In this document: positions 7,958 to 55,391 of the stretch, one piece after another
How the letters are laid out: each line of letters starts with the position of its first letter
Numbering within the stretch: position 1 is the first letter of the stretch
Virus record (IMG/VR): IMGVR_UViG_3300003886_000001
Location: 1-64,000 of that record
DNA from: a virus
Strand: one strand, 5' to 3'
Length of the DNA stretch: 64,000 nucleotides
Position numbers and translations under genes: made by a program
The notes under the pieces: model-generated
Databases searched by the model: none
What the model saw: only the letters and a program-made list of their open reading frames with translations
What the model was told of the DNA's origin: nothing

Positions 7958-8424
7958 TGACTATTTATCAGATTTGGTTAGGACGCTCTCCCCCAACGGG
8001 GATTAAACGATGCATGCGGTCAGTGGAGGAGGTAGCAGGTAAATCTTATGTTCTAGACACAGAAGAGAAATATCCAGGTCTTCCCTATTTTGTACAAAGT
8101 AACTTAATGAGGTTAGAGATGGCGGTGAAAGTGCCAGATTTATTTTATATCGACTCCGACGTGGAGTTATTCAAGATTCCTGATTTTCCTAAAGTTGGAC
8201 CATATATGAGTACATGTGATAGATTTGAGGGGGTTTATCCTGCATTATTTTATGTAAATAATGAGACCTCAGTATTTAAGAGGGTCTTAGAGAATTACAA
8301 ATTAGTATATAATACACGACCACTAATAAACTTAGGCTTCTTTACACTAGTTAACACCATTGATACTACAGCTTACAAACATTATTATTTTACACATAGA
8401 AAGGAGTTTATATGTACGGATTAG
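7957..8424 (+). CDS. Small GT32-like glycosyltransferase (putative)
   Basis: 155 residues. It begins MTIYQIWLG, like the IPxxIHQxW start of GT32-type transferases, has SNLMRLEMAV where that family has an SDxxRxxxL helix, and carries a DxD-type motif in FYIDSDVEL (about 67-75) for metal and nucleotide-sugar binding. Short for the family, so it may be a minimal transferase modifying virion protein or DNA. Stop/start overlap with both neighbours. Confidence 0.6.
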   Translation: MTIYQIWLGRSPPTGIKRCMRSVEEVAGKSYVLDTEEKYPGLPYFVQSNLMRLEMAVKVPDLFYIDSDVELFKIPDFPKVGPYMSTCDRFEGVYPALFYVNNETSVFKRVLENYKLVYNTRPLINLGFFTLVNTIDTTAYKHYYFTHRKEFICTD

Positions 8425-9068
8425 GAAGAGTTCATTCACCCGATGACCGGGATAATAAGTTCCCGCTAAGTGAAAGGTTGCCGGTAGAACAGGCGCGTAA
8501 TACATGGAAATATTGGTGGGCTGACGGATGGTGGGGAAATCAACATGAAACTGAACAGTGTACGGCGTATAGCTGGCTCCATTGGGTTTCCGATGGCCCC
8601 GTTAAACATCCAAAGGACAAGTCTCCCGTAGAAAATCCGGTAAGCTTTTATGAGAAGGAGCAGGTGATTGATGGATTACCGCTTCCGCACCAAGGTAGTA
8701 CGGTTCGGGCTGGGGCAAAGATACTAAAAAGTCAGAACTTTATTCTATCCTATCATTGGGCGCAAAATATTGAAGATATTAAAGCTTGTTTACTAACTAC
8801 AGGACCATTAGTAGTAGGTACGCTTTGGACAACAGACATGTTAACACCTAACCCCAAGGGCATCATTAGACCAACTGGTAACAGTGCTGGCGGCCATGCA
8901 TATGTTTTGGATGGAATTAATCTAGGAAAGGGGCTGTTACGAATTAAAAACTCATGGGGCAGAGAATGGGGAAAGAAGGGATTTGCCTATATCCCTATCA
9001 GCGACTTTGCCCTGTTATTGACGGACCATGGAGAGGCATGCTTAGCTATTGAGAACCCGCTCATCTAA
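8412..9068 (+). CDS. Papain-like (C1A-type) cysteine peptidase
   Basis: 218 residues with the papain triad in order: Cys50 in ETEQCTAYSW, His162 in GGHAYVLDG, Asn180 in IKNSWGREWG. The Q-x(n)-C oxyanion residue appears as Q49 next to the Cys. There is no signal peptide or obvious propeptide, so it probably acts inside the cell or in assembly (for example processing a virion protein). Overlaps the transferase gene by 13 bases; RBS AAAGGAG before ATG 8412. Confidence 0.8.
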   Translation: MYGLGRVHSPDDRDNKFPLSERLPVEQARNTWKYWWADGWWGNQHETEQCTAYSWLHWVSDGPVKHPKDKSPVENPVSFYEKEQVIDGLPLPHQGSTVRAGAKILKSQNFILSYHWAQNIEDIKACLLTTGPLVVGTLWTTDMLTPNPKGIIRPTGNSAGGHAYVLDGINLGKGLLRIKNSWGREWGKKGFAYIPISDFALLLTDHGEACLAIENPLI

Positions 9069-11074: not shown

Positions 11075-11288
11075 AGAGGGGAAAAATATGGATATAGAGA
11101 AGTCCAAGAAATGGATTGCAGGAGCTACCTACAAGGAACTCTTGTCCCATTGGCGTTTTGCTCCTGTAGGCGACCCAATGTTTATTGGCGAATTAGGACA
11201 GTTTTATGTGGAAGAACTACATGAGAAGAAGAGCATGTTAGCATCAGGCGAAGATGTACAAGCGAGCAAAGATATAGGGTGGAATTAG
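11055..11288 (+). CDS. Hypothetical protein
   Basis: 77 residues from ATG 11055 (AAAGGA upstream), overlapping the previous gene by 20 bases. An ATG at 11088 preceded by GAGGGG is an equally good start and would give 66 residues. Acidic and helical, cytoplasmic. Not recognised. Confidence 0.55.
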   Translation: MSNSYGEEGKNMDIEKSKKWIAGATYKELLSHWRFAPVGDPMFIGELGQFYVEELHEKKSMLASGEDVQASKDIGWN

Positions 11289-12115
11289 TGAAATTTGTGG
11301 TTTATCATAATGACGAGGACGGTTTTGGAGCAGCATACGCCGCTTATAAGAAATTCGGGCCAACTGCTCAATATATCGCTATTTCCTATGGTGAGGATTT
11401 ACCATACTTTGGTAAAGACTCAGAAGTATATATGTTGGATTATAGTTTGCCAAGGGATGAAACTGAAGAACTGTCCTCGGCTATCAAGTCCTTAACAATA
11501 GTTGACCATCACAAAACTGCCGAAGAGGAGATTGGTGATTTACCATACACTTGTATTGACCAGTCTCACTCTGCGGCAGTTTTGGCATGGCAGGTTTTTC
11601 ACCCATCAACCGCAGTACCACGATTATTAAGGTATATTGAAGACGCTGACTTATCACAGTGGGGACTACAAAACTCTAAAGAGTTGTTTTACTACTTATC
11701 CATCTACCCTAGAGGATTTTCTGATTGGGAGGAATTGGCCTCCACTCTTGAACAGACAGATTACTTAACTACTAATATCTTCGTTACTGGTAAAACTGTG
11801 GTAGACGCGGTGCGGGCTCAAGCTAATTTGATTTATGACCGTACTATTAGTATGCTGTATATTGGTGGCCATTATGTCCCAGCAGTATGCTCTGCAATAC
11901 TCCAGATGGAATTACGTGAGTTATTGTTAGAGAAAAATTCAGACTTTTTATTCACAGCTAGCTTTTATATCGGTTACGATGATAAGGTACATGTCTCTTT
12001 ATTCTCTGACGGACTTTTTGATGTGTCAGCTATTGCAAAGCGTTATAATGGTGGAGGACACCCACATGCGGCGGCTTTTATCGTTGACGACTTAGAGGAA
12101 TTGAGGACAGGGTAG
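11279..12115 (+). CDS. DHH-family phosphoesterase (NrnA-like)
   Basis: 278 residues; manganese-dependent phosphoesterase expected to hydrolyse short oligoribonucleotides or pAp. HNDEDGFGAAY (10-20), a D in YMLDYSLP, DHH at about 75-77, and the DHHA1 substrate loop NGGGHPHAA near 258-266 are all present. It starts at GTG 11279 (alternative GTG 11288) overlapping the gene before. Useful for turning RNA fragments back into nucleotides during infection. Confidence 0.85.
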   Translation: MELVKFVVYHNDEDGFGAAYAAYKKFGPTAQYIAISYGEDLPYFGKDSEVYMLDYSLPRDETEELSSAIKSLTIVDHHKTAEEEIGDLPYTCIDQSHSAAVLAWQVFHPSTAVPRLLRYIEDADLSQWGLQNSKELFYYLSIYPRGFSDWEELASTLEQTDYLTTNIFVTGKTVVDAVRAQANLIYDRTISMLYIGGHYVPAVCSAILQMELRELLLEKNSDFLFTASFYIGYDDKVHVSLFSDGLFDVSAIAKRYNGGGHPHAAAFIVDDLEELRTG

Positions 12116-12117: not shown

Positions 12118-12507
12118 ATGGGAATAGACAATCCATTAGTGTTATTAGTGGATAGTATACGTAGGTTGCAGAAGCTCTATTGGTTAGAGAATGATTCCCT
12201 TACTGTCGTATATTCAGAAAATCCATTGTTGGATGATGTAGTATGCCTAGACATCGAGTCTACTACTTTATTTTCTACCACAGTGGCAAGACTATCAGCT
12301 AGTTTATTGGTTTGGAAGGTTAACCATAAGACAGATATAGATATTAAACTTAAAGAAATAGCTCCTTACGCTCAGACTATTTTGAATATTTTAGCGGTTA
12401 AGAAGCATTCTTGTAATTTTAAGACAGTGGGAATTGAGGTGAGTAATTCTTATCATATAAGATACGAAAGGTCATATAATAGCATTCTAGATATAACTAG
12501 GCAATAA
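12118..12507 (+). CDS. Single-module member of the IAPYAQ paralogue family
   Basis: 129 residues. Two beta strands end in LLVWKV, then KLKEIAPYAQTILNIL and a terminal helix YERSYNSILDI. The same string of features ends the four larger proteins that follow, so this looks like one module of that family standing alone. No known family recognised. Function unknown. Confidence 0.7.
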   Translation: MGIDNPLVLLVDSIRRLQKLYWLENDSLTVVYSENPLLDDVVCLDIESTTLFSTTVARLSASLLVWKVNHKTDIDIKLKEIAPYAQTILNILAVKKHSCNFKTVGIEVSNSYHIRYERSYNSILDITRQ

Positions 12508-12518
12508 GAAAGGAAAAT

Positions 12519-13442
12519 ATGGAAGTTAAAGTAGCTAAATTCGTAGGTGAAGTTCCTAATTCGTTATTACACTATGTGGATGGTGTACGTGCAACGTGTT
12601 TTATAATGGTACACTATAGTCTGTTGACAGCAATTGTGACTCTCTCAATTTCTGATAGTAATAGATATATAACCCACGGCACTGTTGAAGAGTTATATTA
12701 TGAAATTCCCATATTTACCAACGAAGCTGTCAATATGTTCTTGTCTGAGGCTAAGAGTCGTATTCTTAACATCTATACTAACGACGTAGATATAAGCCCG
12801 AGGACATTTCTTAAGAAGATTGACCAAGAGTTACGCGTGATGTGTCAGACAACTGAGTACGATACCGTCACATGGATAAAGGCGGAGGATTGGGTAACAC
12901 AGATATTTAATTCGCCTAGTAGTGATTATGAGCGGTCAATAGCCACTAGTATCAAGGATTTAAAGTCTTATTCTCCCGGCTATCTACACGATTTACAAAA
13001 TGATGTTGTTGCATATAATTATTCACGCTCACCTAATCTGGTAGTTGTGGGATTATTGAGTTATTTAGAAAAACTAGCCAAGAACTTTCAATCAGAATCC
13101 GCTATTAGACTACTTAAGTGGAAGTCCTACCATGAATCAACACTTGAGACTGTAAACATATACTTAAATCCGGAGGATAGGACTTTATATGCAGGGGAAC
13201 TGCTGCCAAGTGACCATCCAAGTAGGTCACGCCTGATAGTTTGGACACTATCTTTATGTAACGAGCAGGAAGTGAATAAGCGGTTAGAGGCAATAGCTCC
13301 TTACGCACAAACAATGATAGATATATTAAAGTCTAAACTAAATGGACCTAATACATTTTATCCTATTTCGCTTGATAAGAAGTACGAAAATGCATATAAG
13401 TCAATAACGAAGATACTGGGAGAAGAAAGGGTGTCTCCATGA
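12519..13442 (+). CDS. Two-module paralogue, copy 1
   Basis: 307 residues, RBS AAAGGA. N-terminal module: beta strands, then YEIPIFTNEAVNMFL and a helix. Middle helical domain near 125-190 with DLKSYSPGYLHDLQNDVVAY. C-terminal module: LIVWTLSLCNEQEVNKRL, IAPYAQTMIDIL and ENAYKSITKIL. Close in layout to the next three genes, so it arose by tandem duplication. No transmembrane or signal segment. Function unknown. Confidence 0.75.
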   Translation: MEVKVAKFVGEVPNSLLHYVDGVRATCFIMVHYSLLTAIVTLSISDSNRYITHGTVEELYYEIPIFTNEAVNMFLSEAKSRILNIYTNDVDISPRTFLKKIDQELRVMCQTTEYDTVTWIKAEDWVTQIFNSPSSDYERSIATSIKDLKSYSPGYLHDLQNDVVAYNYSRSPNLVVVGLLSYLEKLAKNFQSESAIRLLKWKSYHESTLETVNIYLNPEDRTLYAGELLPSDHPSRSRLIVWTLSLCNEQEVNKRLEAIAPYAQTMIDILKSKLNGPNTFYPISLDKKYENAYKSITKILGEERVSP

Positions 13443-14392
13443 GTGTAAAGATATTGACTAGGTTTTCTGAGATAGAGCCGAAATCACTACTCGTATTTGC
13501 TGAAGGGGCTACAAGTCCACGAACGCCCCGTTTAACACTATCTTTCCAATTTGATTTCTATTCTGAAACCCTGTATACAAAGATAGCGGATATGAATGAG
13601 GTAGTAATCGGGCTATCTCTCTCTACTCCTATACAAGAAGATAAAAATTCATCATACAGTATTGAGGTGCCGATTCTTACTAATCGTAGCGCTACATCCT
13701 TTCTACGAGATGTCCAACAGTTTCTAGTCAGGGAAGAATTGCAGAAGCGCGCCCTCGGGCACCAAAATAAAGAATCAATCTTTGAGAGGTTAAAGACATT
13801 CTGTGAGAGTCGCCTTGGAGAATATGAAGTTATTAACTGGAGGATGGCAGCTAGTTGGATAAGGGAGATAACACATAACCCAGGTAATCAATATGAAGAA
13901 GCTATTGCAAAGGGCATTAAAGACATAAATTCTTATTCTACTCGTCAGGATTTAATGGATTTACAAAATATGATTGTAGCATATAGTTATATGGTTACCC
14001 CCAGAATAGCAATAGTAGGGTTATGGTCATACCTTGTACATACATTAGTAGAAGACTTCAAGGCTACTGGTACGGGTGATGAAATGCTTCTCCCAAGACA
14101 CCCTATTAGAGTTACCAGATTATCGGGAAATCCACTTGCTCGTCATATATTCCTCCTAGTTTTAAGCCCAGAAACTAATAGTTTATTTGTAACTCTACCA
14201 TCGGTTGGCCCTGCCGCGCCATATCTTCTGTCTTGGGTACTTCCTACACTCCGAGAGGAAGAAGTTAATGACAAGTTAAACAAAGTATTACCCCATATGG
14301 AAGTAATACTCGATACGCTAGCTGACCGAGACATCTCTAGTAACAGGTATGAAGAGGCATATAAAAATATCGTAGATATAATTAAACGTTAG
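13439..14392 (+). CDS. Two-module paralogue, copy 2
   Basis: 317 residues, ATGA overlap with copy 1. Same order: an LTLSFQFD strand, VPILTNRSATSFLRDV, middle INWRMAASWIREI and INSYSTRQDLMDLQNMIVAY, then LLSWVLPTLREEEVNDKL, VLPHMEVILDTL and EEAYKNIVDII. The IAP-type centre is changed to VLPH. Function unknown. Confidence 0.75.
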   Translation: MSVKILTRFSEIEPKSLLVFAEGATSPRTPRLTLSFQFDFYSETLYTKIADMNEVVIGLSLSTPIQEDKNSSYSIEVPILTNRSATSFLRDVQQFLVREELQKRALGHQNKESIFERLKTFCESRLGEYEVINWRMAASWIREITHNPGNQYEEAIAKGIKDINSYSTRQDLMDLQNMIVAYSYMVTPRIAIVGLWSYLVHTLVEDFKATGTGDEMLLPRHPIRVTRLSGNPLARHIFLLVLSPETNSLFVTLPSVGPAAPYLLSWVLPTLREEEVNDKLNKVLPHMEVILDTLADRDISSNRYEEAYKNIVDIIKR

Positions 14393-14400
14393 GGAATACT

Positions 14401-15303
14401 ATGGATGTAAATATAACAACCAAGTTTTCAGCGACAGAACCTAATTCCTTGCTACGGTTTGACGAGGGTGATACGCAGCCAAATAACTGTTACCTATCCC
14501 TATCCTTTTATTTAGACTCAGAACCAGGTATTGATGTGTCTCTTTCCGCCTTTAAGCCGGCTAAAGATGAATGGGGTTGGGAGGTACCACCCTTTACTAA
14601 TAAGGGCGGTACCCGATTCCTCCATGCTATCTGTGGTGTTATTAACAACTCCCTTAGTACAGTCTCAGATAGAACTAGTATAATTGAAAGTGTTACAACA
14701 TTCTGTGATAGTAATATATCCAAATATGAGGCTATTAACTGGAAGTTGGCAACCGATTGGGTTAGGGGTATAGTTAGTAACCCTGTTAATGAGTATGAAA
14801 GTTCTATATCGGCTGCGGTTAAAGACTTAAAATCGTATTCTCCTAGTTATATACAAGATTTGCGGAATATGATTGTATCTTACAGCTATTTAGTTACCCC
14901 ACAGGTGGTAGTAGTCGGATTACTTGAATATCTGGTATATCTGAGACTAAATGGTGTCGAAGTGCCGCTTGAAGTCATGGAATGGACCCCCATTGACCCA
15001 ACCATTCGATACTCACTTGTAGTGTACTTAAATGTTGCTGATGGACTTTTATTTGTAAATACTATTTCTATGGGTAATAGAGGTAGCGGAGCAGACTTTT
15101 TAACCTGGAAATTTTCCTCCCTCCTCAATAAGAAGGAAGTAAATGATAGGTTAGAGCGAATAGCCCCTCATGCCAAGAAGATGCTTGAGATATTGTCTGT
15201 AAAAAGGGACATCAACCCTATAGTGGATTTTAATGAGTATAGCGATAGGTATAAAAAAGAATACAAATTAATTCAAGAATTAGTTATGGAGAAAGGACTC
15301 TAA
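14401..15303 (+). CDS. Two-module paralogue, copy 3
   Basis: 300 residues. LSLSFYLD strand, VPPFTNKGGTRFLHAI, middle INWKLATDWVRGIVSNP and SYSPSYIQDLRNMIVSY, then FLTWKFSSLLNKKEVNDRL, IAPHAKKMLEIL and YKKEYKLIQELV. The middle domain is nearly the same as in copy 2. No catalytic motif stands out. Confidence 0.75.
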   Translation: MDVNITTKFSATEPNSLLRFDEGDTQPNNCYLSLSFYLDSEPGIDVSLSAFKPAKDEWGWEVPPFTNKGGTRFLHAICGVINNSLSTVSDRTSIIESVTTFCDSNISKYEAINWKLATDWVRGIVSNPVNEYESSISAAVKDLKSYSPSYIQDLRNMIVSYSYLVTPQVVVVGLLEYLVYLRLNGVEVPLEVMEWTPIDPTIRYSLVVYLNVADGLLFVNTISMGNRGSGADFLTWKFSSLLNKKEVNDRLERIAPHAKKMLEILSVKRDINPIVDFNEYSDRYKKEYKLIQELVMEKGL

Positions 15304-16232
15304 TGAACATTCCTATTACTGTCAGTGAGGTATCTGATGAGTTTCCTAATACACTATTACAGGTGGATAAGGGAAAAGCCAAGCAGTGCTATTTAGGTGT
15401 TGCTGTTTATAATAATCCTCATAACCAATATAGTATAGATGTATATATCACCACGTCAAGTACAGGAAGAGAGGAAGATTCATCAGTATTCTCAAAGTTT
15501 TGGAAAATCCCGCTTGTAACTAACGAGACTGCTAATCGTTTTTTACATGGATTTAAAGATGTTTTAGAAAATGTGGTGTACTGGACCAATCAAAATCAAT
15601 TATCTAACTTTAAGTGGTCTACAGATTCAATATGGAAATATATCATTACATGCAATGATGTATCTCCTAAAAGTCGGATTAGCTGGCAAACAGCAGAGGC
15701 TTTTATGAAAGAGCTTGCAGTTAGTAACTTAATAGGTTCGCCGGACTTAGTAAATAGGGTTACACGAATTAGTGATGTTGATTTAGTGAGTTTACAAAAT
15801 AATATCATTAACTACATTTACTCGTACAACCTTCCAGTAGTACCACACTTATTAGAATATTTATACAAACTTCGTAATATATATACATTAACAGAAGAAG
15901 TTCCGTTGACTATAGTATATCGTAAAGATGAGAAGGGTTCTCTTTATCGTCGTGGAGTAGTCTGTTTTAATCAGTACAATAATACGTTATTTACTACATC
16001 TTTGAGATATGGTAAATCATCTCCCGATTATGTGTTTTCCTGGAATTTTGCACCTTGTAGTGACGATGAAATTAACTGTAAATTAGAGCAGATATCTCCG
16101 TTTGTACAGACTATGCTAAGAGTAATGGTTGTAGGACACCATTCTGTTAAGTTTGCTTTAGTTAGGGACTCTGTATTCTATACAAAAAAATACTACGATA
16201 GCCTTGACAGCATCACTACCGTCTTAAGCTAA
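15303..16232 (+). CDS. Two-module paralogue, copy 4
   Basis: 309 residues, start overlaps the stop of copy 3. The most diverged copy: WKIPLVTNETANRFLHGF, middle DVDLVSLQNNIINYIY, FSWNFAPCSDDEINCKL, ISPFVQTMLRVM and YYDSLDSITTVL. Its end overlaps by 9 bases the end of the DUF1003 gene on the other strand. Confidence 0.75.
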   Translation: MNIPITVSEVSDEFPNTLLQVDKGKAKQCYLGVAVYNNPHNQYSIDVYITTSSTGREEDSSVFSKFWKIPLVTNETANRFLHGFKDVLENVVYWTNQNQLSNFKWSTDSIWKYIITCNDVSPKSRISWQTAEAFMKELAVSNLIGSPDLVNRVTRISDVDLVSLQNNIINYIYSYNLPVVPHLLEYLYKLRNIYTLTEEVPLTIVYRKDEKGSLYRRGVVCFNQYNNTLFTTSLRYGKSSPDYVFSWNFAPCSDDEINCKLEQISPFVQTMLRVMVVGHHSVKFALVRDSVFYTKKYYDSLDSITTVLS

Positions 16233-16634
16233 TCCCACTAAGTCGTCTTTGTCTTGCTTGTCCTCCTCATCAATTGAGTCTTCAATATCGTCTAGAGTGT
16301 CTGCAAGGTCTTTAATATCATCAGCTATATGACGTACATTACTTTCTGTTTGTTGTGTCAAGTCATAGGCTACACGAGCGTCACGTCGGTCACTAGCAGA
16401 TTGCCTATTTTGGCTCATAAGAATGAACGGGGCTGCGTAGGCTGCCTGCATTGACAGCATGAGGTTCATAAATACAAATGGATATTGGTCCCAATGATAC
16501 ACATGTCCTATAGTGTTTAATGCCATCCAAATTGCTAAAATAAATGTTTGGATGGTAATAAATCTCCAGGAACCTACTGTCTGCACAATCTTATCGGCTA
16601 ACACCCTTTCGTCTGTTGTGTTCTTTTTTTTCAT
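16224..16634 (-). CDS. DUF1003 membrane protein
   Basis: 136 residues. Two membrane segments (about 25-42 and 50-70) separated by YHWDQYPFVF and followed by LSMQAAYAAPFILMSQNRQ, the DUF1003 signature. The last 45 residues are a strongly acidic predicted coiled coil. Sits in the inner membrane; the family has no settled function. It is a single convergent gene in a run of rightward genes. Confidence 0.85.
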   Translation of the reverse strand: MKKKNTTDERVLADKIVQTVGSWRFITIQTFILAIWMALNTIGHVYHWDQYPFVFMNLMLSMQAAYAAPFILMSQNRQSASDRRDARVAYDLTQQTESNVRHIADDIKDLADTLDDIEDSIDEEDKQDKDDLVGLA

Positions 16635-16847: not shown

Positions 16848-17129
16848 ATGGCAATTAGAAAATATCCTGCTGGTGACCAGGATAGAGATACCAGAGTTGC
16901 CCCGAAGAGAGATGGTCATGTTAGTATGGGTTCTTATGGAACAATTGTTTATACATACAAATTGACCTTGGAACGACCTATGTTTGCAGGTCGGCTATAC
17001 CATCCGGTAGAGACATATGATGATGCAGTCAAATGGCTTGCTTATTATAAGAGCGCTACTCAGATTAAAGGCTTTGTTAATGCTCCACTTTACGTGCAGG
17101 CATGGTTTGTGCCTAGAGGTGAAACATAA
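16848..17129 (+). CDS. SYG-WLxYY paralogue A
   Basis: 93 residues. MGSYGTIVYTYKL, LYHPVETYDDAVKWLAYY and KGFVNAPLYVQAWFVP line up with the next two genes. No known family recognised; alternating strands and one amphipathic helix are likely. Shares the promoter at 16702. Confidence 0.65.
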   Translation: MAIRKYPAGDQDRDTRVAPKRDGHVSMGSYGTIVYTYKLTLERPMFAGRLYHPVETYDDAVKWLAYYKSATQIKGFVNAPLYVQAWFVPRGET

Positions 17130-17524
17130 TGGCATTTGAATCACTAATTCCTCCAACGTTAGGTAAATATTGGGGGAACTACTTAGCCAAGAATATGCCC
17201 AGGTTTAATTCTAGAAGAATCTATGGAACCTACGGTGCGATAATGCTACGTATTCAGTGGGAGTACCCGTATGCCCTTCCAAATTATCTATACCAAACGA
17301 TAAATAACGCGGCAGAGGCTAGTTGGTGGTTATCCTATTATAGAAATAGGCCTGACATTGATGGTGTAACGTTTTTTCCGGCCCCGGCGCAATACTCAAT
17401 GGGGACCTTTACTCCACCAGTGCTGCCGTCATATGTGGAGTACCCTGGACCAGAAGTGATGTGGGAAAAGGATGTATTACTAGCTGGACCCTACAAATTT
17501 GGGGATAAGGGATATACCTATTAA
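17129..17524 (+). CDS. SYG-WLxYY paralogue B
   Basis: 131 residues. YGTYGAIMLRIQW, LYQTINNAAEASWWLSYY, FFPAPAQYSMGTFTPP and a C-terminal WEKDVLLAGPYKFGDKGYTY tail. Closest to copy C, which has the same tail (AGAYAFGNDKHTF). Start overlaps the stop of copy A. Confidence 0.65.
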   Translation: MAFESLIPPTLGKYWGNYLAKNMPRFNSRRIYGTYGAIMLRIQWEYPYALPNYLYQTINNAAEASWWLSYYRNRPDIDGVTFFPAPAQYSMGTFTPPVLPSYVEYPGPEVMWEKDVLLAGPYKFGDKGYTY

Positions 17525-17526
17525 CG

Positions 17527-17952
17527 ATGAAAGTAAATTACGACACTCCACAACCTATAGGCGCTGGTGTTAACTCGGTTTTTCCTCGTCTAGAATACCG
17601 TTATAAAGACCGGCTAAAACTAAAGCTGCCGAAGTTAAATGCACTTAGGCAGTTTGGTAGCTATGGTATGATTGAAATTAGCGTGGTTTGGTTCTATCCA
17701 CTGAATCCACCAGGAAAGATATATCAGTCCGTGTTTAATGCTCCGGAAGCATCATATTGGCTTGCCTATTATCAACATGACGGAAATGTAACAGAAGCAC
17801 ACTTCGTGCCCTCTCCAGACCAATTTACTAGTGGGACGTTTAGTATTCCTATATCTCCCCCAGTTATTTCACCAGTTTCTCCGGCAGCGTGGTATATAGA
17901 GGATAAGGAAGCCGGAGCATATGCCTTTGGCAATGATAAACACACGTTCTAA
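17527..17952 (+). CDS. SYG-WLxYY paralogue C
   Basis: 141 residues. FGSYGMIEISVVW, IYQSVFNAPEASYWLAYY, FVPSPDQFTSGTFSIP. Aromatic-rich, soluble, no signal peptide. Tandem duplication with A and B. Function unknown. Confidence 0.65.
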   Translation: MKVNYDTPQPIGAGVNSVFPRLEYRYKDRLKLKLPKLNALRQFGSYGMIEISVVWFYPLNPPGKIYQSVFNAPEASYWLAYYQHDGNVTEAHFVPSPDQFTSGTFSIPISPPVISPVSPAAWYIEDKEAGAYAFGNDKHTF

Positions 17953-47718: not shown

Positions 47719-48198
47719 ATGTCCTGGAAAAATCACAAGAAATACGCTTATAGGGACAGATATATTCGGAATACTTTGAATGCAAGAAAAATCTATCAAA
47801 GCTATCCGCCTCTTTTTGTTGCGGGGGAAAATCTCCAGCGGGGGACGCCACGTCTACAGGACAGGATGCAATACTGCTCGTTTGGGGTTAGGAAAGTAAC
47901 CCGTTTGGTTACCCCTGTCGAGGAACCTGATGATTATGTAACACGAATCTCTCAAGATGAATTCTGGGGCCTTGAAGAAAAGGAGTATGAGGATAAATAC
48001 ATTGCTGTACGTTATAACCTTGATAGGTCACTTCATGGAGATGGACCTTATTGGAAATGGTGGAAAAAACAAAGTAAACGAGTGACACGTCGTCAGAACC
48101 GCTCCTATTGTAAAAGTGTTATGGACGACGAAGAACGGGCAGAAAGAAAGCTGCCAGAACATAATTTTCGGGAGTATACGGACTGGTCTTGGTATTAA
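47719..48198 (+). CDS. Hypothetical basic protein
   Basis: 159 residues from ATG 47719 (AAGGAAG upstream). Tyr/Arg/Lys-rich at both ends (KNHKKYAYRDRYIRNTLNAR; KWWKKQSKRVTRRQNRSYCK), so it may bind nucleic acid. No family recognised. Confidence 0.55.
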   Translation: MSWKNHKKYAYRDRYIRNTLNARKIYQSYPPLFVAGENLQRGTPRLQDRMQYCSFGVRKVTRLVTPVEEPDDYVTRISQDEFWGLEEKEYEDKYIAVRYNLDRSLHGDGPYWKWWKKQSKRVTRRQNRSYCKSVMDDEERAERKLPEHNFREYTDWSWY

Positions 48199-48932
48199 TG
48201 AGAGCCCCACACAACAGAACGTTGACCTGTTCTGCATCTGAGCTAGAAGAGCTCTCAAAAGACCTTCTATACCTGCATTCCCGCCGCCGGCCCGCTGCTT
48301 TTGTTAACCGTGTAATTAACCAGGACTTGTGGGAGGCTGCCCAATTTTTACCAAAGAAGTTTGTGGACCTTCTCATCCTGGACAACTTAACCAAGAATTA
48401 TATAAACTACACGTCATGGTTTTCAGAAGTTTTGGACATGCTAGCTCCAACCCTAAAGCCTACAGCTTCCGTATACGTGTGCAGCGATTGGAGAACATCT
48501 ACCCTCATATTTCCCGTATTAGAACGGTACTTCCACGTACGCAATAGGATTACTTGGGAACCTGGAAGAGGAGCAAATACAAACTGGAAGAATAACACGG
48601 AGGATATCTGGTTTGCCACATGCACGGATGATTACCAGTTCAACCAATCAAATCTTTGGCCAAATGTTTCTATTCCGCCTTGGGAAGACACTGACCACCC
48701 AATCCAGAAACCCGAGAAACTTATTGCTAAACTTATACTTGCTAGTTCACGCGAAGACGGTATGGTATTTGCTCCTTTTCTGGGCAGTGGTACTACAGCC
48801 GTCGTTGCGAAAAAGTTGAACAGAAGGTTTTGTGGAATTGAACTAAATCGCGAATACTGCTGTTGGACGCTAAAACGCTTGCAGAAAGCAGAATCAGACA
48901 AACGCATCCAAGGGTATTATATAGCCTCTTGA
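48198..48932 (+). CDS. DNA methyltransferase fold with altered catalytic motif
   Basis: 244 residues from ATG 48198 (TAATG overlap). C-terminal FLGSGTTAVVAKKLNRRFCG is the AdoMet-binding motif of beta-class N4/N6 methylases, and TDHPIQKPEKL is the usual segment before it. Motif IV, expected as DPPY after a hydrophobic strand, reads LLILDNLT (D62-T65). The Asp stays but the base-stacking aromatic is lost, so it may be inactive or bind an unusual target. Confidence 0.7.
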   Translation: MRAPHNRTLTCSASELEELSKDLLYLHSRRRPAAFVNRVINQDLWEAAQFLPKKFVDLLILDNLTKNYINYTSWFSEVLDMLAPTLKPTASVYVCSDWRTSTLIFPVLERYFHVRNRITWEPGRGANTNWKNNTEDIWFATCTDDYQFNQSNLWPNVSIPPWEDTDHPIQKPEKLIAKLILASSREDGMVFAPFLGSGTTAVVAKKLNRRFCGIELNREYCCWTLKRLQKAESDKRIQGYYIAS

Positions 48933-48957
48933 CACGACTTCTAAACTATGATATACT
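48929..48957 (+). promoter_or_regulatory. Sigma70-type promoter of the tRNA cluster
   Basis: TTGACA 48929-48934, 17-base spacer, TATACT 48952-48957. Reads into the first tRNA. Confidence 0.8.
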
Positions 48958-49004
48958 ATGTTTGTTGGTAAGGAGGATTTAGGTCTCGATTACGAGAACG
49001 GAAT

Positions 49005-49093
49005 GGAGGATTGCCAGAGTCGGCCAATTGGGTCTCGCTGCTAACGAGAACGGTGTAATAGCCACAGAGGTTCGAATCCTCTATCCTCCTCCA
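49005..49093 (+). tRNA. tRNA-Ser (anticodon GCT)
   Basis: Acceptor GGAGGAT/ATCCTCC, stem TCTCG/CGAGA with loop CTGCTAA, long variable arm, CCA encoded. Confidence 0.9.
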
Positions 49094-49096
49094 ATT

Positions 49097-49171
49097 GCGG
49101 TTATGGTGTTAATGGTAGCACAGGGGTCTTCCAAACCACAGGCCAGGGTTCGAATCCCTGTAACCGCTCCA
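49097..49171 (+). tRNA. tRNA-Gly (TCC)
   Basis: Acceptor GCGGTTA/TAACCGC, anticodon loop CTTCCAA, CCA encoded. Confidence 0.9.
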
Positions 49172-49174
49172 AAA

Positions 49175-49249
49175 GTCGGCTTGGTGTAATGGGAACATGG
49201 CACTCTCCAAAAGTGTTAGATGCAGGTTCGACCCCTGTGGCCGGCGCCA
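49175..49249 (+). tRNA. tRNA-Trp (CCA)
   Basis: Acceptor GTCGGCT/GGCCGGC, anticodon loop CTCCAAA, CCA encoded. Confidence 0.88.
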
Positions 49250-49252
49250 AAT

Positions 49253-49327
49253 GGTTTGTTGATATAACGGAAATTATACTAACCTGTCACGTTAGAAATA
49301 GGGGTTCGACTCCCCTACAGACCGCCA
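49253..49327 (+). tRNA. tRNA-Asp (GTC)
   Basis: Acceptor GGTTTGT/ACAGACC, stem CTAAC/GTTAG with loop CTGTCAC, CCA encoded. Confidence 0.88.
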
Positions 49328-49366
49328 ATTTTAATCTTCCTCATGATTGTACGAGCTACAATGTAT

Positions 49367-49441
49367 TCTAGGATGGTGAAAGGGTATCACGGCAGACTGT
49401 TAATCTGTCAGTTGTAGGTTCGAATCCTACTCCTAGAGCCA
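49367..49441 (+). tRNA. tRNA-Asn (GTT)
   Basis: Acceptor TCTAGGA/TCCTAGA, loop CTGTTAA, CCA encoded. Confidence 0.9.
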
Positions 49442-49442
49442 A

Positions 49443-49516
49443 GCTTCTGTAGGACAATGGTTAGTCTCCCCGGCTCTTACCCGGTATATTCCAGTTCGAA
49501 TCTGGACAGAAGCACC
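49443..49516 (+). tRNA. tRNA-Lys (CTT)
   Basis: Acceptor GCTTCTG/CAGAAGC, loop CTCTTAC in a CCGG/CCGG stem whose outer pair is mismatched, CCA encoded. Confidence 0.82.
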
Positions 49517-49527
49517 ACTTCTCACCA

Positions 49528-49554
49528 AACTCATCTTCAAGCTGCTAGACTAAG
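49528..49554 (+). promoter_or_regulatory. Possible phage-type promoter within the tRNA cluster
   Basis: AACTCAT 49528-49534, 11 bases, TAGACTAAG 49546-49554, in the 70-base gap before tRNA-Lys(TTT). Confidence 0.4.
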
Positions 49555-49586
49555 TAAGTAAGGAAAGGAAGGAAAGACAACAACTT

Positions 49587-49661
49587 GCTCCCGTGGCCGA
49601 ACGGTTAGGCATCCGACTTTTAATCGGTACAGCGTAGGTTCGACTCCTACCGGGGGCACCA
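49587..49661 (+). tRNA. tRNA-Lys (TTT)
   Basis: Acceptor GCTCCCG/CGGGGGC, stem CCGA/TCGG with loop CTTTTAA, CCA encoded. Confidence 0.9.
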
Positions 49662-49790
49662 GGAGTTCCGGCTCCTACAAACCGGTACAGAAAAGGCGAC
49701 GGTTTCTGTAGAGCACGGGGGTAGCTCACCCCCAAGTCGCAAAACAAAAGGGTGGTTTTCACGGTCTTTTCCCACCTTATATATAAAAAA
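49662..49790 (+). ncRNA. Structured spacer, candidate non-coding RNA
   Basis: No gene fits. ACAGAAA and TTTCTGT pair around AGGCGACGG, AAACCG and CGGTTT offer a competing helix, and GCGAC...GTCGC encloses a GGGGGT-AGCTC-ACCCCC hairpin. A GGGTGG...CCCACC hairpin follows. Longest untranslated structured spacer in the cluster. Confidence 0.45.
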
Positions 49791-49867
49791 AGACACTTCT
49801 CTACCCGGGGACACTAGAGGGTCTGGTGGTAAGGTGAGAAATTATAACACCTCACAGCCACCATTCT

Positions 49868-49958
49868 GGAAGATGCCGCTAAATGGCTGGCAACTGGTCT
49901 TGAAAACCAGGGGAGCACCTAAGAAGGGCTCGGGGTTCGATTCCTCCATCTTCCTCCA
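49868..49958 (+). tRNA. tRNA-Ser (TGA)
   Basis: Acceptor GGAAGAT/ATCTTCC, stem CTGGT/ACCAG with loop CTTGAAA, long variable arm, CCA encoded. Confidence 0.9.
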
Positions 49959-49969
49959 AGAACAAGTAT

Positions 49970-50045
49970 GGGGACGCATGTGCCAAGGGGGCGAGGATGC
50001 CTTGCAAGCAACCTGTGGAGAGTTCGATTCCCTCCGTCTCCACCA
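49970..50045 (+). tRNA. tRNA-Ala (TGC)
   Basis: Acceptor GGGGACG/CGTCTCC, loop CTTGCAA, one mismatch in each of the anticodon and T stems, CCA encoded. Confidence 0.8.
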
Positions 50046-50047
50046 TA

Positions 50048-50137
50048 GGCAAGTAGTTTACTTGAATAGAACAGCGCACCTAGATAGACGCGTATTTAAT
50101 AGGGTGTGAAAGCGCAGGTTCGACTCCTGTCTTGCCA
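50048..50137 (+). tRNA. tRNA-like element, anticodon arm not resolved
   Basis: 90 bases. Acceptor GGCAAG/CTTGCC, D stem GTTT/GAAC and T arm CAGG/CCTG fold, but the anticodon region has only GCGC/GCGT around a 12-base loop containing CCTAGAT. Length suggests a class II (Leu-type) origin. No CCA encoded. Possibly a decayed tRNA-Leu. Confidence 0.45.
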
Positions 50138-50231
50138 ACTCTCGCGTGAGCGAGTGATAGCGGAATAATGCGCGGGTTGCGGGGCACAATGGAATGAGTA
50201 TCGCCATGGACACGAAAAGGATACTCTTTAT

Positions 50232-50319
50232 GCTAGGACGGCAACGATGGTGAGTTGTGATGGACTGTAAATCCATTGCCCTTTGGGCTTAGTAGGTTCG
50301 AATCCTATTCCTAGCACCA
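50232..50319 (+). tRNA. tRNA-Tyr (GTA)
   Basis: Acceptor GCTAGGA/TCCTAGC, loop CTGTAAA, long variable arm, CCA encoded. The 94 bases before it hold two hairpins (CTCGC/GCGAG and GAGTATC/GATACTC) and no gene. Confidence 0.9.
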
Positions 50320-50463
50320 ATGAAGTTAGTACCGGGTAAACCTATCTGTCTGTCGGCTGAGGATAGCCTAGAATTAAGTCGAAGCCTTCTAGAGCCATCC
50401 ACCCCTGTATTAGCTTTAGTAAAGGCGTACAAGCGCTCTCAGAGGCTTATACAAAAATAGGAT

Positions 50464-50541
50464 GGTCCTCGGGTGTGGCTGGTGCCAGCACACGTGTCTG
50501 AAAAACACGAGGTTGCAGTTCGATTCTGCGGGGGACCACCA
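50464..50541 (+). tRNA. tRNA-Phe (GAA)
   Basis: Acceptor GGTCCTC/GGGGACC, stem CGTGT/ACACG with loop CTGAAAA, CCA encoded. The 144-base spacer before it contains only an unsupported 46-codon frame. Confidence 0.9.
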
Positions 50542-50544
50542 CAT

Positions 50545-50621
50545 GTTGGATGATGCCGAAATGGTTGAGGCACCAGACTGTGAATCTGGAGTAATGGGTT
50601 CAATTCCCATCATCCAACCCA
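50545..50621 (+). tRNA. tRNA-His (GTG) with G-1
   Basis: TTGGATG/CATCCAA plus an extra 5' G opposite C73, the histidine identity pair. Stem CCAGA/TCTGG, loop CTGTGAA, CCA encoded. Confidence 0.92.
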
Positions 50622-50627
50622 TATAAT

Positions 50628-50704
50628 CGGGAATTAGCGCAGCCTGGTAGCGCACCTGTTTTGGGAACAGGGGGCCACAAGTTCGAATCTTGTATTCCCG
50701 ACCA
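50628..50704 (+). tRNA. tRNA-Pro (TGG)
   Basis: Acceptor CGGGAAT/ATTCCCG, stem CCTGT/ACAGG with loop TTTGGGA, CCA encoded. Confidence 0.92.
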
Positions 50705-50706
50705 AT

Positions 50707-50781
50707 GCCTTCTAAGCATAAATGGTGATGCACTAGCCTTGTAAACTGGTGAAGTCGGTTCGATTCCGGCAGAGGGCTCCA
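50707..50781 (+). tRNA. tRNA-Thr (TGT)
   Basis: Acceptor GCCTTCT/AGAGGGC, loop CTTGTAA, one mismatch at the stem base next to the loop, CCA encoded. Confidence 0.85.
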
Positions 50782-50785
50782 AAGT

Positions 50786-50874
50786 GTGATAGTGGCGGAA
50801 TTGGTATACGCGCTGGTCTCAAAAACCAGTTAGGTTAATCCCTTATGTGGGTTCGACTCCCACCTATCTCACCA
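50786..50874 (+). tRNA. tRNA-Leu (CAA)
   Basis: Acceptor GTGATAG/CTATCTC with one mismatch, stem CTGGT/ACCAG with loop CTCAAAA, long variable arm, CCA encoded. Confidence 0.88.
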
Positions 50875-50877
50875 TAT

Positions 50878-50952
50878 TGCCTGCTAGTCTAAATGGTAAA
50901 ACGTCGGACTCTGAATCCGTACTTCCAGGTTCGAATCCTGGGCGGGCAGCCA
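50878..50952 (+). tRNA. tRNA-Gln (CTG)
   Basis: Acceptor TGCCTGC/GCGGGCA, loop CTCTGAA, CCA encoded. Confidence 0.9.
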
Positions 50953-50955
50953 CAT

Positions 50956-51035
50956 AGTGGTGTATACCCTCCGTCTGATACACGGTAGAAAGGTTACTTG
51001 GTTCCAAGTTGGTTCGATTCCAACCACCACTACCA
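50956..51035 (+). tRNA. tRNA-like element without a standard anticodon arm
   Basis: 80 bases. Acceptor AGTGGTG/CACCACT, T arm GTTGG/CCAAC with loop TTCGATT and encoded CCA are perfect. The middle folds as GTGTA/TACAC or CCGT/ACGG, and no 5-bp stem with a 7-base loop sits where the anticodon should be. Confidence 0.45.
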
Positions 51036-51040
51036 CATAT

Positions 51041-51068
51041 TTCTCATAAAAGTTTGGTCTATGATAAG
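51041..51068 (+). promoter_or_regulatory. Phage-type promoter TTCTCAT-N12-TATGAT
   Basis: TTCTCAT 51041-51047, TATGATAAG 51060-51068, followed by AGGGAAGGG and ATG 51086. Confidence 0.7.
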
Positions 51069-51085
51069 GTTTGAAGGGAAGGGAC

Positions 51086-51310
51086 ATGGATAACCTTATA
51101 TTTACTGTAGACGAATTGGTTACTCACCTCATGAGCCTTAAAGGTAGAGGTATAATAACTGGCAAAGAACCCGTGTTGGATACTGGTTATTTTGGAATTA
51201 CGCACGTGGTCCGTCATATAGATGGAGAGGTTCCGGTCGTTACTTTAGAAAGTGATGAATTAAACGTAGCAGCCATAAAATCCGCCCCACAAAAAATGAC
51301 TTCACTTTAA
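51086..51310 (+). CDS. Hypothetical protein
   Basis: 74 residues from ATG 51086 (RBS AAGGGA). Alpha/beta, with VDELVTHLMSLKGRGI and a central TGYFGITHVVRH. It resembles small phage proteins encoded beside ligases, but no family is named. Overlaps the ligase start by one base. Confidence 0.55.
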   Translation: MDNLIFTVDELVTHLMSLKGRGIITGKEPVLDTGYFGITHVVRHIDGEVPVVTLESDELNVAAIKSAPQKMTSL

Positions 51311-52248
51311 TGGTTTGGAAAGTGTTTAAATCACGAATCAAGCTTTTTCCTCATCCTAATGCTGAAAGACTAGTTATTGGGAAGGTGGGAAAGTACCAGG
51401 TAGTAACACTTAAGGGACTTTATGTAGATTGTGAGGATGTTGTTTTTGTCCCAGCTAAATCTGTTCTTCCGGACGAATTAGCTAATGACTATAGGGAATA
51501 CTTAGGTGGTCCTGAAAAAAACCGTGTACGTGAAGTCTCCCTTCGGGGAGAAGTTTCCATGGGGATGGTTTTCAAGGTTGATGAAGTAACTAAAAACCTT
51601 CCCTATAAGGAAGATATAAGCGAGTTACTTGGTATTTATAAATACGAGCCCTCTATTCCAGTTAGTTTGTCTGGGGACGTACTCAAAATACCGAAGGGTA
51701 CCTTCTCACAGCATGACGTAGAAAGGTATAATAACGATTTTCGGGGCGATGAGGAAGTTTCCGTTACAGAGAAAATCCATGGTAGTCAAGTAATTTTAGG
51801 AAGGTCCAAGGAAGGGGAAATATTTGTAACCTCAAAAGGGTTGATGTCCCGTGGGCTGTCCTTAGTCGAGTCTGATAGAAATACCTATTGGAGGGCTGCC
51901 AGGAAATGGCTAGACGCAATCTCATATTTCTCACCTAGACATGATGTACAGTTTATTGGAGAGGTTGTTCCCGTACAGAAAGGATTTTCATATGGGTTTG
52001 ATACACCTACTATACTATTCTTTGATGTACGGGTTGATGGAGAAGGTGCAGCTAGGCATACTGGACTTTTATGGGTTCCCAGCATCTATAATGGACCTTT
52101 TTCCGGGGCTCCGCTAAACCCAAGTGGAAATGAGCAGGTGAGTGGAAAAGAAGTACATATAAAGGAAGGAATCGTAATAAAAGGAGAGAACGCAATAGTA
52201 AAAATTCTTAACAAGAAGTATAAAGAAACCGGAGAAGAGATAAGTTGA
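51310..52248 (+). CDS. Rnl5-type RNA ligase (DraRnl-like)
   Basis: 312 residues. N-terminal OB domain (about 1-95) with FPHPNAERLVIGKVGKYQVV and VFVPAKSVLPDEL matches the Deinococcus RNA ligase (Rnl5) arrangement. The ligase core has motif I EKIHGS with Lys155, a later FIGEVVPVQKGF (motif III) and EGIVIKGE (motif IV). Rnl5 seals 3'-OH/5'-phosphate breaks in RNA held in duplex. It lies inside the tRNA cluster. Confidence 0.82.
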   Translation: MVWKVFKSRIKLFPHPNAERLVIGKVGKYQVVTLKGLYVDCEDVVFVPAKSVLPDELANDYREYLGGPEKNRVREVSLRGEVSMGMVFKVDEVTKNLPYKEDISELLGIYKYEPSIPVSLSGDVLKIPKGTFSQHDVERYNNDFRGDEEVSVTEKIHGSQVILGRSKEGEIFVTSKGLMSRGLSLVESDRNTYWRAARKWLDAISYFSPRHDVQFIGEVVPVQKGFSYGFDTPTILFFDVRVDGEGAARHTGLLWVPSIYNGPFSGAPLNPSGNEQVSGKEVHIKEGIVIKGENAIVKILNKKYKETGEEIS

Positions 52249-52273
52249 CAAGTGACCTAGAATGTGCTATTCT
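52245..52273 (+). promoter_or_regulatory. Sigma70-type promoter of the second tRNA group
   Basis: TTGACA 52245-52250, 17-base spacer, TGC then TATTCT 52268-52273; the first tRNA base is 52282. Confidence 0.8.
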
Positions 52274-52281
52274 TTAGGCAT

Positions 52282-52357
52282 GCGGGTATAGACCAACGGC
52301 AGAGTCAAACGACTTAAAATCGTTTCAGTGTGGGTTCGAATCCCACTACCCGCACCA
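52282..52357 (+). tRNA. tRNA-Leu (TAA) with short variable loop
   Basis: 76 bases. Acceptor GCGGGTA/TACCCGC, stem AACGA/TCGTT with loop CTTAAAA, CCA encoded. The variable region is class I length, unlike normal bacterial tRNA-Leu. Confidence 0.85.
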
Positions 52358-52434
52358 ATAGAGAGGAAAAGGCTCCATCCAAAACCCTTACCCAGGGTAC
52401 AGTGGTTAAAACCTCTTAAAAACCTTACTTTCTT

Positions 52435-52509
52435 ACGTCTGTAGTTCAATGGTCAGAACCTCCGGCTTATATCCGGCTAATCTGGGTTCGAATCCCGGCA
52501 GACGTACCA
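52435..52509 (+). tRNA. tRNA-Ile (TAT)
   Basis: Acceptor ACGTCTG/CAGACGT, loop CTTATAT, CCA encoded. Reads AUA directly. Confidence 0.85.
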
Positions 52510-52512
52510 CAA

Positions 52513-52587
52513 GCCCGGTTAGCGCAACGGAAGCGCGGCTGCCCTACAAGCAGTAGGTTATAGGTTCGAATCCTATACTGGGCACCA
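52513..52587 (+). tRNA. tRNA-Val (TAC) with C33
   Basis: Acceptor GCCCGGT/ACTGGGC, loop CCTACAA, so base 33 is C instead of the near-universal U. CCA encoded. Confidence 0.85.
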
Positions 52588-52626
52588 ATAGAGGAAAAGG
52601 CGAACCTCTTTAAACACCTTCTCCAT

Positions 52627-52698
52627 TGCGGCGCGCCTAGGAGGTAGCACGGGCTCATACTCCGTTGCTCAAGGGTTCGATTCCCTTCGCCGCCACCA
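52627..52698 (+). tRNA. tRNA-Met-type (CAT)
   Basis: 72 bases. GCGGCG/CGCCGC with a U1:C72 mismatch, stem ACGGG/TCCGT, loop CTCATAC, CCA encoded. Either elongator Met or an Ile2 tRNA with modified C34. Confidence 0.8.
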
Positions 52699-52699
52699 T

Positions 52700-52779
52700 C
52701 GCAGAGAGGAGGCTATTGGTTCGCCTCACGTGTCTCATACGCACGTTTAGTGTAAGTTCGATTCTTGCCTCTGCAACCA
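52700..52779 (+). tRNA. Initiator-like tRNA-Met (CAT)
   Basis: 80 bases. Acceptor CGCAGAG/CTCTGCA leaves C1 opposite A72, and D stem GAGG/CCTC has A11:U24, both marks of bacterial initiator tRNA. Loop CTCATAC. The three G:C pairs of initiator anticodon stems are not present (CGTGT/GCACG). Ends GCAACCA as in tRNA-fMet. Confidence 0.8.
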
Positions 52780-52780
52780 T

Positions 52781-52830
52781 GTAAGCGTTTGGTAGACATA
52801 AACGTGGGTTCGAGTCCCACTGCTTGCACT
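52781..52830 (+). tRNA. Truncated tRNA-like element (about 50 bases)
   Basis: Acceptor GTAAGCG/TGCTTGC and T arm GTGGG/CCCAC with loop TTCGAGT are intact; in between only GTTT-GGTAGACAT-AAAC remains. No anticodon arm and no CCA. Remnant of an internal deletion or a minihelix RNA. Confidence 0.55.
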
Positions 52831-52837
52831 TTTTTAA

Positions 52838-52914
52838 GGTGTGATAGTTTAGCGGGCTAAAACACAAGGCTTTCAACCTTGTAGACACCGGTTCAAATCC
52901 GGTTCACACCACCA
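52838..52914 (+). tRNA. tRNA-Glu (TTC)
   Basis: Acceptor GGTGTGA/TCACACC, stem CAAGG/CCTTG with loop CTTTCAA, CCA encoded. Confidence 0.92.
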
Positions 52915-52984
52915 GGTCCTTCTGGCATAATTGGATAAGGCATAGCCCTGCGAAGGCTAAGATTACAGGTTCGAGTCCTGTGGA
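52915..52984 (+). tRNA. Degenerate tRNA-Arg (GCG), acceptor lost
   Basis: Anticodon stem TAGCC/GGCTA with loop CTGCGAA and T arm ACAGG/CCTGT are good. The 3' acceptor strand does not pair with the 5' end beyond about 4 bases and runs straight into the next tRNA. No CCA. Probably non-functional. Confidence 0.5.
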
Positions 52985-52985
52985 T

Positions 52986-53059
52986 GCGAGGTTAGTTTAA
53001 CGGTAGAACTTCTCGTTGCCAACGAGAGGATGTGGGTTCGACTCCCTCCCTTCGCTCCA
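52986..53059 (+). tRNA. tRNA-Gly (GCC)
   Basis: Acceptor GCGAGG/CTTCGC with wobble, stem TCTCG/CGAGA with loop TTGCCAA, CCA encoded. Confidence 0.88.
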
Positions 53060-53060
53060 T

Positions 53061-53135
53061 GCTGGAATAGCTTAATTGGTAAAGCCTCCGTTTCGTAAAC
53101 GGGGAAATGTTGGTTCGAAGCCGACTTCCAGCCCC
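53061..53135 (+). tRNA. tRNA-Thr (CGT), no full CCA
   Basis: Acceptor GCTGGAA/TTCCAGC, stem CCGT/ACGG with loop TTCGTAA. After the discriminator only CC precedes the next tRNA. Confidence 0.88.
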
Positions 53136-53211
53136 GCTCGGATAGTTTCAGTTGGTAGAACGCTTCCTTGGTAAGGAAGAGGTCAGCGGTTCGAGCCCGC
53201 TTCCGAGCCCC
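53136..53211 (+). tRNA. tRNA-Thr (GGT), no full CCA
   Basis: Acceptor GCTCGGA/TCCGAGC, stem CTTCC/GGAAG with loop TTGGTAA; again CC then the next tRNA. Confidence 0.9.
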
Positions 53212-53287
53212 GCCCCGTTCGTCTAGTGGATAAGACGCCAGTCTTCTAAACTGGTAATCGTGGGTTCGAATCCTACACGGGGCACCA
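53212..53287 (+). tRNA. tRNA-Arg (TCT)
   Basis: Acceptor GCCCCGT/ACGGGGC, stem CCAGT/ACTGG with loop CTTCTAA, CCA encoded. Confidence 0.92.
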
Positions 53288-53290
53288 TAT

Positions 53291-53366
53291 GGCTCTATGG
53301 TCTAACGGATAAGACGCCAGTCTTCGAAACTGGTAGATGTGGGTTCGACTCCTACTAGGGCCACCA
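53291..53366 (+). tRNA. tRNA-Arg (TCG)
   Basis: Acceptor GGCTCTA/TAGGGCC, stem CCAGT/ACTGG with loop CTTCGAA, CCA encoded. Anticodon arm nearly the same as the previous tRNA-Arg. Confidence 0.92.
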
Positions 53367-53369
53367 CAT

Positions 53370-53444
53370 GTTCCCATAGTTTAATGGATAGAATAAGGGT
53401 TTCCTAAACCTTTGATGTCGGTTCGATTCCGGCTGGGAACACCA
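53370..53444 (+). tRNA. tRNA-Arg (CCT)
   Basis: Acceptor GTTCCCA/TGGGAAC, loop TTCCTAA, CCA encoded. Last of this run, 15 bases before the RNase H gene. Confidence 0.9.
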
Positions 53445-53459
53445 TTATAAGGAGGACAC

Positions 53460-53846: not shown

Positions 53847-53901
53847 ACGCGTTCGTATATATGTCGTCCAGGACAGGGTTTCTAGCAATAACAAGGATAT
53901 C

Positions 53902-55264: not shown

Positions 55265-55293
55265 TTGACATATAGGTATGAGGGTGCTATACT
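55265..55293 (+). promoter_or_regulatory. Sigma70-type promoter of the third tRNA group
   Basis: TTGACA 55265-55270, 17-base spacer, TGC then TATACT 55288-55293; transcription would begin at or just before the first tRNA base. Confidence 0.85.
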
Positions 55294-55301
55294 ACCTACA
55301 T

Positions 55302-55388: not shown

Positions 55389-55391
55389 TAT

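Follow-up and report, generated by a model that had tools for sequence, protein, structure and literature searches.

What are the five adjacent genes at positions 12118-16232 of virus record IMGVR_UViG_3300003886_000001, and what would a phage gain from keeping so many versions of one protein? The stretch analysed here, the window, comprises bases 1-64000 of this 119,665-base record. An original prediction had described the row (array A) as a tandem array of an unrecognised two-module protein family, internally duplicated around a linker and selected for diversity as in anti-defence or surface-interaction families. Our analysis supports that interpretation in part. The five open reading frames (ORFs) have exactly the predicted coordinates, and they belong to a far larger, lineage-specific expansion of a single module of three strands and two helices (beta3-alpha2) that is common to this phage and to plasmids. 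We tentatively read the array as part of a diversified set of binders acting in trans, and give this reading as a whole a probability of about 45%.

Judged by blastp and phmmer, homology among the five array proteins is far above chance level. The four long copies match one another with E values of 1e-8 to 8e-53 at 23-34% identity, and the short copy, P0001, matches the C-terminus of all four (E = 8e-7 to 4e-10). The module spans about 80 residues and, in an AlphaFold model of the single-module protein P0008, takes a beta-beta-beta-alpha-alpha fold (three strands, two helices; predicted local distance difference test score (pLDDT) 87, predicted template modelling score 0.78). Its signature consists of an L[DN]xxxGxL...W strand, an LLxxIxPxAQxxLD helix and an AxxxIxxLC helix. 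An AlphaFold model of the long copy P0004 (mean pLDDT 71; 84-93 in the N-terminal part, weaker in the C-terminal part) has the same order of strands and helices at both ends and, together with matches to the module model, supports the two-module architecture around a helical linker. Net charge is -1 to -8 over the 129-317 residues of the array proteins, and some other copies reach -18; DNA mimicry of the kind used in Ocr/ArdA-type anti-restriction was rejected for the array, whose charge is not highly negative.

Whether the two ends arose by internal duplication, as had been proposed, is a subtler matter. A hidden Markov model (HMM) of the module built without any array sequence matched all C-modules (independent E = 1e-10 to 1.5e-4) and, at corresponding positions, all four N-modules (0.002-0.13); these and most other profile E values from the module and family searches refer to small local databases. 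A profile of the array N-part plus linker matched two phage genes made of module plus linker, 68458-69051 (E = 1.5e-8) and 67723-68307 (E = 5e-4), both of which match the module model themselves. Direct comparison of the N- and C-module profiles was not significant (P = 0.4), and internal duplication therefore rests on transitive evidence. The order of elements, the weak but position-consistent matches and the link through genes 68458 and 67723 support identification of the N-part as a module, more weakly than for the C-part. In a tree of modules, the four N-modules form one group (support 0.87) and the C-modules another that includes P0001 (0.98), the pattern expected had a two-module gene been duplicated whole.

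The family is, as predicted, unrecognised. No Pfam, PHROGs, NCBIfam or PDB-sequence family matched the module proteins (best phage PHROGs E = 0.0014), no phage protein matched any PADLOC defence model, and Foldseek searches of the PDB and BFVD with the module and P0004 returned no match with E <= 0.001. No structure prediction showed an unrelated fold and no profile placed the proteins in a characterised family. Weak Pfam and PHROGs matches (ALG11_N, Orbi_VP2, phrog_20775 and others; E = 0.007-0.3) were judged to be chance. Searches of the open-access literature turned up neither a description of the module family nor a phage with an expansion of this kind.

Amplification in tandem was correctly foreseen; its extent was undercounted. 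A module profile iterated to convergence found 22 intact genes in the 119.7-kb record, 11 of them inside the window, and a second independent search agreed. They form array A, a singleton at 54743 and three further clusters (B, C and D; Table 1). Modules occur alone, with a helical domain or, in the array, as module-helical-module, about 27 modules in total, with two each in the four long array proteins and in 69041-69697; module genes cover 10.8 kb, or 9% of the record. When all gene-like ORFs were clustered by single-sequence similarity, the family appeared as a 16-gene group, against 2 genes in the next largest paralogous group of the record and 4 in the largest group of the sister phage described below. 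Third-position GC ranges from 0.54 to 0.70 in cluster D versus 0.29 to 0.36 in array A.

The record, from a large uncultured phage, is distantly related to Thermus phage phiYS40 (46% portal identity) and has 32 tRNA genes and genes for ribonucleotide reductase, RIIA, a clamp loader and a DHH phosphoesterase. Its nearest relative found, IMGVR_UViG_3300009702_000014 (sister phage G001, 202 kb), has a portal identity of 76% and is collinear over most of its length. No module was found at useful E values anywhere in the sister phage by module profile search, nor in the other phiYS40-clade records reached via the portal, some of them fragments, including phiYS40, TMA and YS40_Isch, Thermus phages of the same broad lineage that differ from this phage in lacking the family; the comparison of copy number among relatives thus stands at 22 genes here versus none in those searched. 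Scans of viral contigs with phage or bacterial members, which use short conserved patterns and detect only close relatives, such that absence elsewhere is not proof, found the module beyond this phage in just two places, the Streptomyces WAC08241 plasmid (also present in IMG/VR) and one 11.9-kb contig. Matches to Erwinia and Serratia jumbo phages by tblastn (E = 0.5-2) failed the module HMM and were rejected, as was a YS40_Isch match (E = 0.0017) with the motif missing. The record (window 120-45600) belongs to a branch, at about 40% GC, of the phiYS40 lineage, whose other members in IMG/VR include records of 152-202 kb; GC rises from about 39% to 42-47% over 48000-64000, near the region of the 32 tRNA genes.

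At the array itself, the sister phage shows the empty site. Measured between aligned ends, about 150 bases separate the homologues of the two flanking genes (Table 1), and the intervening sequence is mostly the remainder of both genes plus a short hairpin-like stretch. Since the flanking genes are nearly adjacent there, array A is a clean presence/absence difference on a syntenic backbone and not an assembly artefact. The DHH phosphoesterase gene is probably both the left boundary of the insertion and an operon partner of the array: from it onwards the genes are separated by gaps of 2, 11 and 8 bases or overlap by 1 or 4 bases, tight packing that is compatible with one predicted transcript. 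A promoter and terminator scan gave results near chance level.

The family is not confined to phages. By tblastn, P0014 matches proteins of Streptomyces plasmids (E = 7e-6, 34.5%), and the module was detectable in both profile directions: the phage HMM matched the plasmid proteins at 1e-6 to 3e-12, with one at 3e-5, against 0.009 for the best of 1,800 shuffled controls, and an HMM built from bacterial sequences only matched phage genes with E down to 1.6e-21 (P0014; 3e-9 for P0002), with nothing below 0.1 in the sister-phage control. By these matches, the module is not a phage invention but has single-copy relatives on plasmids of Streptomyces and other actinobacteria, an unnamed family annotated as 'hypothetical protein' (WP_274036677.1, WP_331725119.1, WP_266976158.1, WP_213173142.1). 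Most plasmid proteins examined carry the module and a C-terminal helical domain ending in GLxxYLxxLR. The array linkers and genes 67723-68307, 68458-69051 and 62454-63041 align with this domain (..GL..YL..), the P0004 linker being its counterpart (...VVGLLEYL.. / ..VLHGLWGYL..), and the bacterial HMM covers both module and helical part of 67723-68307 (residues 48-188, E = 1.4e-9); the plasmid unit corresponds to these three phage genes and, in the array proteins, to the initial two thirds of the chain. The module-linker-module form of the phage was not seen among the bacterial sequences examined. Further relatives occur in Natronoglycomyces, and a more distant one, which does not match the phage profile itself, on a Chromobacterium plasmid carrying terminase genes. 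Matches at E <= 1e-5 were found in 3 of 396 Actinomycetota genomes, the starting genome included, and the family is therefore sporadic in that phylum.

The plasmid proteins differ from the phage set in copy number (1-2 per replicon, in high-GC hosts, against 22 genes) and in that some are fused to a helix-turn-helix (HTH) domain, which was absent from every phage copy scanned. C-terminal fusion to HTH_31 (E = 3e-7) occurs in NBC_00212 and S. kronopolitis; fusion to an Aca2/YdiL-like domain exceeds the Pfam cut-off in S. kronopolitis (Aca2_YdiL, E = 4.7e-7) and falls below it in two others; HTH_23-like fusions in two bacterial proteins and an HTH_58-like fusion in one are all below the cut-off. 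In Streptomyces proteins the module is joined to the HTH plus dimerisation domain of Aca2/YdiL-like regulators (PF08965), and only that bacterial partner belongs to the regulator family; the phage proteins scanned have neither. The Streptomyces proteins that join module, helical domain and Aca2/YdiL-like HTH (L080, L081, L078) are candidate regulators of mobile elements and possibly a lead to inhibitor operons.

How might such a module act? Because its conserved positions are of core type (Leu, Trp, Pro-x-Ala-Gln, Ile, Cys) and include no polar set resembling an active site, we infer that the module-helical unit is a putative non-catalytic protein-interaction domain, serving partner binding or dimerisation. 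That it is joined to DNA-binding domains time and again in bacteria points to a function in partner binding, sensing or dimerisation, and in plasmids the unit would control or oligomerise the attached regulator. The phage copies lack the DNA-binding part, which makes action in trans the most likely mode. Through duplication and later divergence the phage would have gained a panel of binders, each copy binding a different host or rival-element protein, possibly the module-bearing regulators themselves, and blocking or redirecting that target during infection. The presence of stand-alone and doubled copies, diverged yet intact, suggests such a set; in the array all ORFs are intact and have preserved the core motif at roughly 23-39% identity overall, as expected if each copy is kept. 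Selection for diversity may have operated among copies that have now diverged too far for the ratio of non-synonymous to synonymous substitutions to be used. A surface-interaction role, the other option originally offered, seems unlikely: no targeting signal is visible by eye, the array is packed behind the DHH gene and some relatives are DNA-binding fusions.

Several points weigh against a panel of trans-acting binders. The fold searches were uninformative, so that 'interaction domain' was reached by elimination; no known defence or counter-defence gene was identified next to any module gene; and the HTH fusions tie the module to DNA binding in bacteria only, such that its mode of action in the phage may be another. 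The Aca2/YdiL fusion makes anti-CRISPR-like activity a serious rival: each phage copy would be devoted to inhibiting a defence (by anti-CRISPR, anti-restriction or similar action), and the HTH-fused bacterial forms would be inhibitors with Aca-type autoregulation. Small, diverging copies in large number, carried by a mobile element and with relatives on plasmids, would suit this explanation, as would AcrIF24, which is both Acr and Aca and so provides a precedent for inhibitor and regulator in one chain (PMC9638941), a conceptual analogue only, with no sequence relation to the module proteins found. However, no acr or cas neighbours were identified, PADLOC gave a single match (RmrA, E = 3.6e-5), confined to the HTH portion of a bacterial protein, Aca2/YdiL-type regulators also occur beyond phages and Acr loci (PMC8434428), and the fused module-plus-linker has the length of a sensor domain; we consider dedicated inhibitors unlikely.

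It is distinctly unlikely that the modules are internal building blocks of phage machinery (replication, condensation or an assembly scaffold) forming hetero-oligomers, even though two-module proteins and many paralogues could assemble combinatorially and array A sits behind the DHH phosphoesterase gene and upstream of the clamp-loader gene, since the collinear sister and other phiYS40-clade phages have the same core genes without modules and relatives exist as single genes on plasmids. The bacterial fusions and the possible operon with the DHH gene could instead mean that nucleic acid is bound by the modules directly, in a regulatory or DNA-protecting capacity; with phage proteins that are neutral to acidic (one is clearly basic) and bacterial DNA binding placed in a separate domain, we find this very unlikely. 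If a selfish gene segment had simply been amplified passively and almost neutrally, with most copies lacking a specific function, this would explain the restriction to one lineage, the clusters on both strands and the likewise duplicated SprT-like gene nearby, but the intact ORFs and preserved motif at such divergence would require purifying selection, and we give passive amplification very little credence. Returning to the trans-acting binder set, its boldest form, which is unlikely as stated, holds that the phage turned a plasmid regulatory or interaction module into an arsenal in which each of the 22 diverged copies neutralises a different host or rival-element protein, either by joining module-bearing regulators encoded on resident plasmids or by capping defence proteins; if true, the copies would form a new class of modular phage counter-factors, recognisable by their scaffold. 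More generally, a single plasmid-shared module that fills 9% of a phage's DNA and is missing from its nearest relatives is a rare lineage-specific expansion for a virus. The domain family is new to the libraries searched, its profile enables the module to be found elsewhere, and it links phage accessory genes with HTH-fused plasmid proteins; if the copies do bind different partners, they are a ready panel for finding host targets or counter-defence functions.

Table 1. Array A, its flanking genes and the other module genes and clusters (record positions; G001, sister phage)
Feature	Position	Strand	Description
DHH phosphoesterase gene	11279..12115	+	phrog_4771, E = 2e-60; ends 2 bases before P0001; sister homologue G001:117912-118721
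P0001	12118..12507	+	129 aa; single C-type module, about residues 35-129; module HMM E = 4e-21
P0002	12519..13442	+	307 aa; module-helical linker-module; array-free model marks residues 41-88 and 211-305
P0003	13439..14392	+	317 aa; module-helical linker-module; ATGA overlap with P0002
P0004	14401..15303	+	300 aa; module-helical linker-module; AlphaFold model
P0004 N-module	14488..14724	+	Residues 30-108: strands 30-62, helices 67-108; weak module-HMM match 52-83
P0004 helical linker	14737..14946	+	Residues 113-182; model helices 117-182
P0004 C-module	14965..15288	+	Residues 189-296: strands 189-222, helices 244-296 (lower confidence); module HMM 207-294
P0005	15303..16232	+	309 aa; module-linker-module; most divergent copy; 1-base overlap with P0004
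Putative membrane protein gene	16224..16634	-	Convergent; right boundary of insertion; sister homologue G001:117463-117762
P0015	54743..55030	+	Isolated single-module gene in tRNA region; module HMM E = 9e-23
Cluster B	61659-63967	-	5 module genes
P0021	61659..62132	-	Cluster B; module + helical-linker type; module HMM E = 1.6e-9
P0022	62135..62467	-	Cluster B; single module; E = 1.7e-5, iterated 3.5e-15, second search 4e-23
P0020	62454..63041	-	Cluster B; module + helical linker; found by two module profile searches
P0014	63020..63475	-	Cluster B; single module; tblastn link to Streptomyces plasmid proteins
P0013	63635..63967	-	Cluster B; single module; module HMM E = 5e-25
Cluster C	66841-70632	+	8 module genes
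Cluster D	73723-74721	-	3 module genes

The record has other repeated features. The SprT-like metalloprotease gene is present in two copies near clusters C and D, at 66224-66715 (+) and 72243-72713 (-) (L002:2224-2715 and 8243-8713), both matching one and the same locus of the sister phage; on a Natronoglycomyces plasmid, too, a SprT-like gene lies roughly 4 kb away from the module gene. Upstream of module gene 70106 (L002:5935-6366), a short unit coding for MKVKEEE is repeated, in frame given a TTG start. Within the window, a row of small look-alike proteins of 93, 131 and 141 aa with a YGxIxxxxxW..YP motif lies at 16848-17952; about 3.5 kb separates the homologues of the first and second of these in the sister phage. 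On the minus strand at 76.1-78.7 kb (L002:12600-14700), a series of small proteins, unlinked by single-sequence search, is alike by eye (VxxxYLVxxxxxxR...LxxxxITExEY) and is possibly another diverged array.

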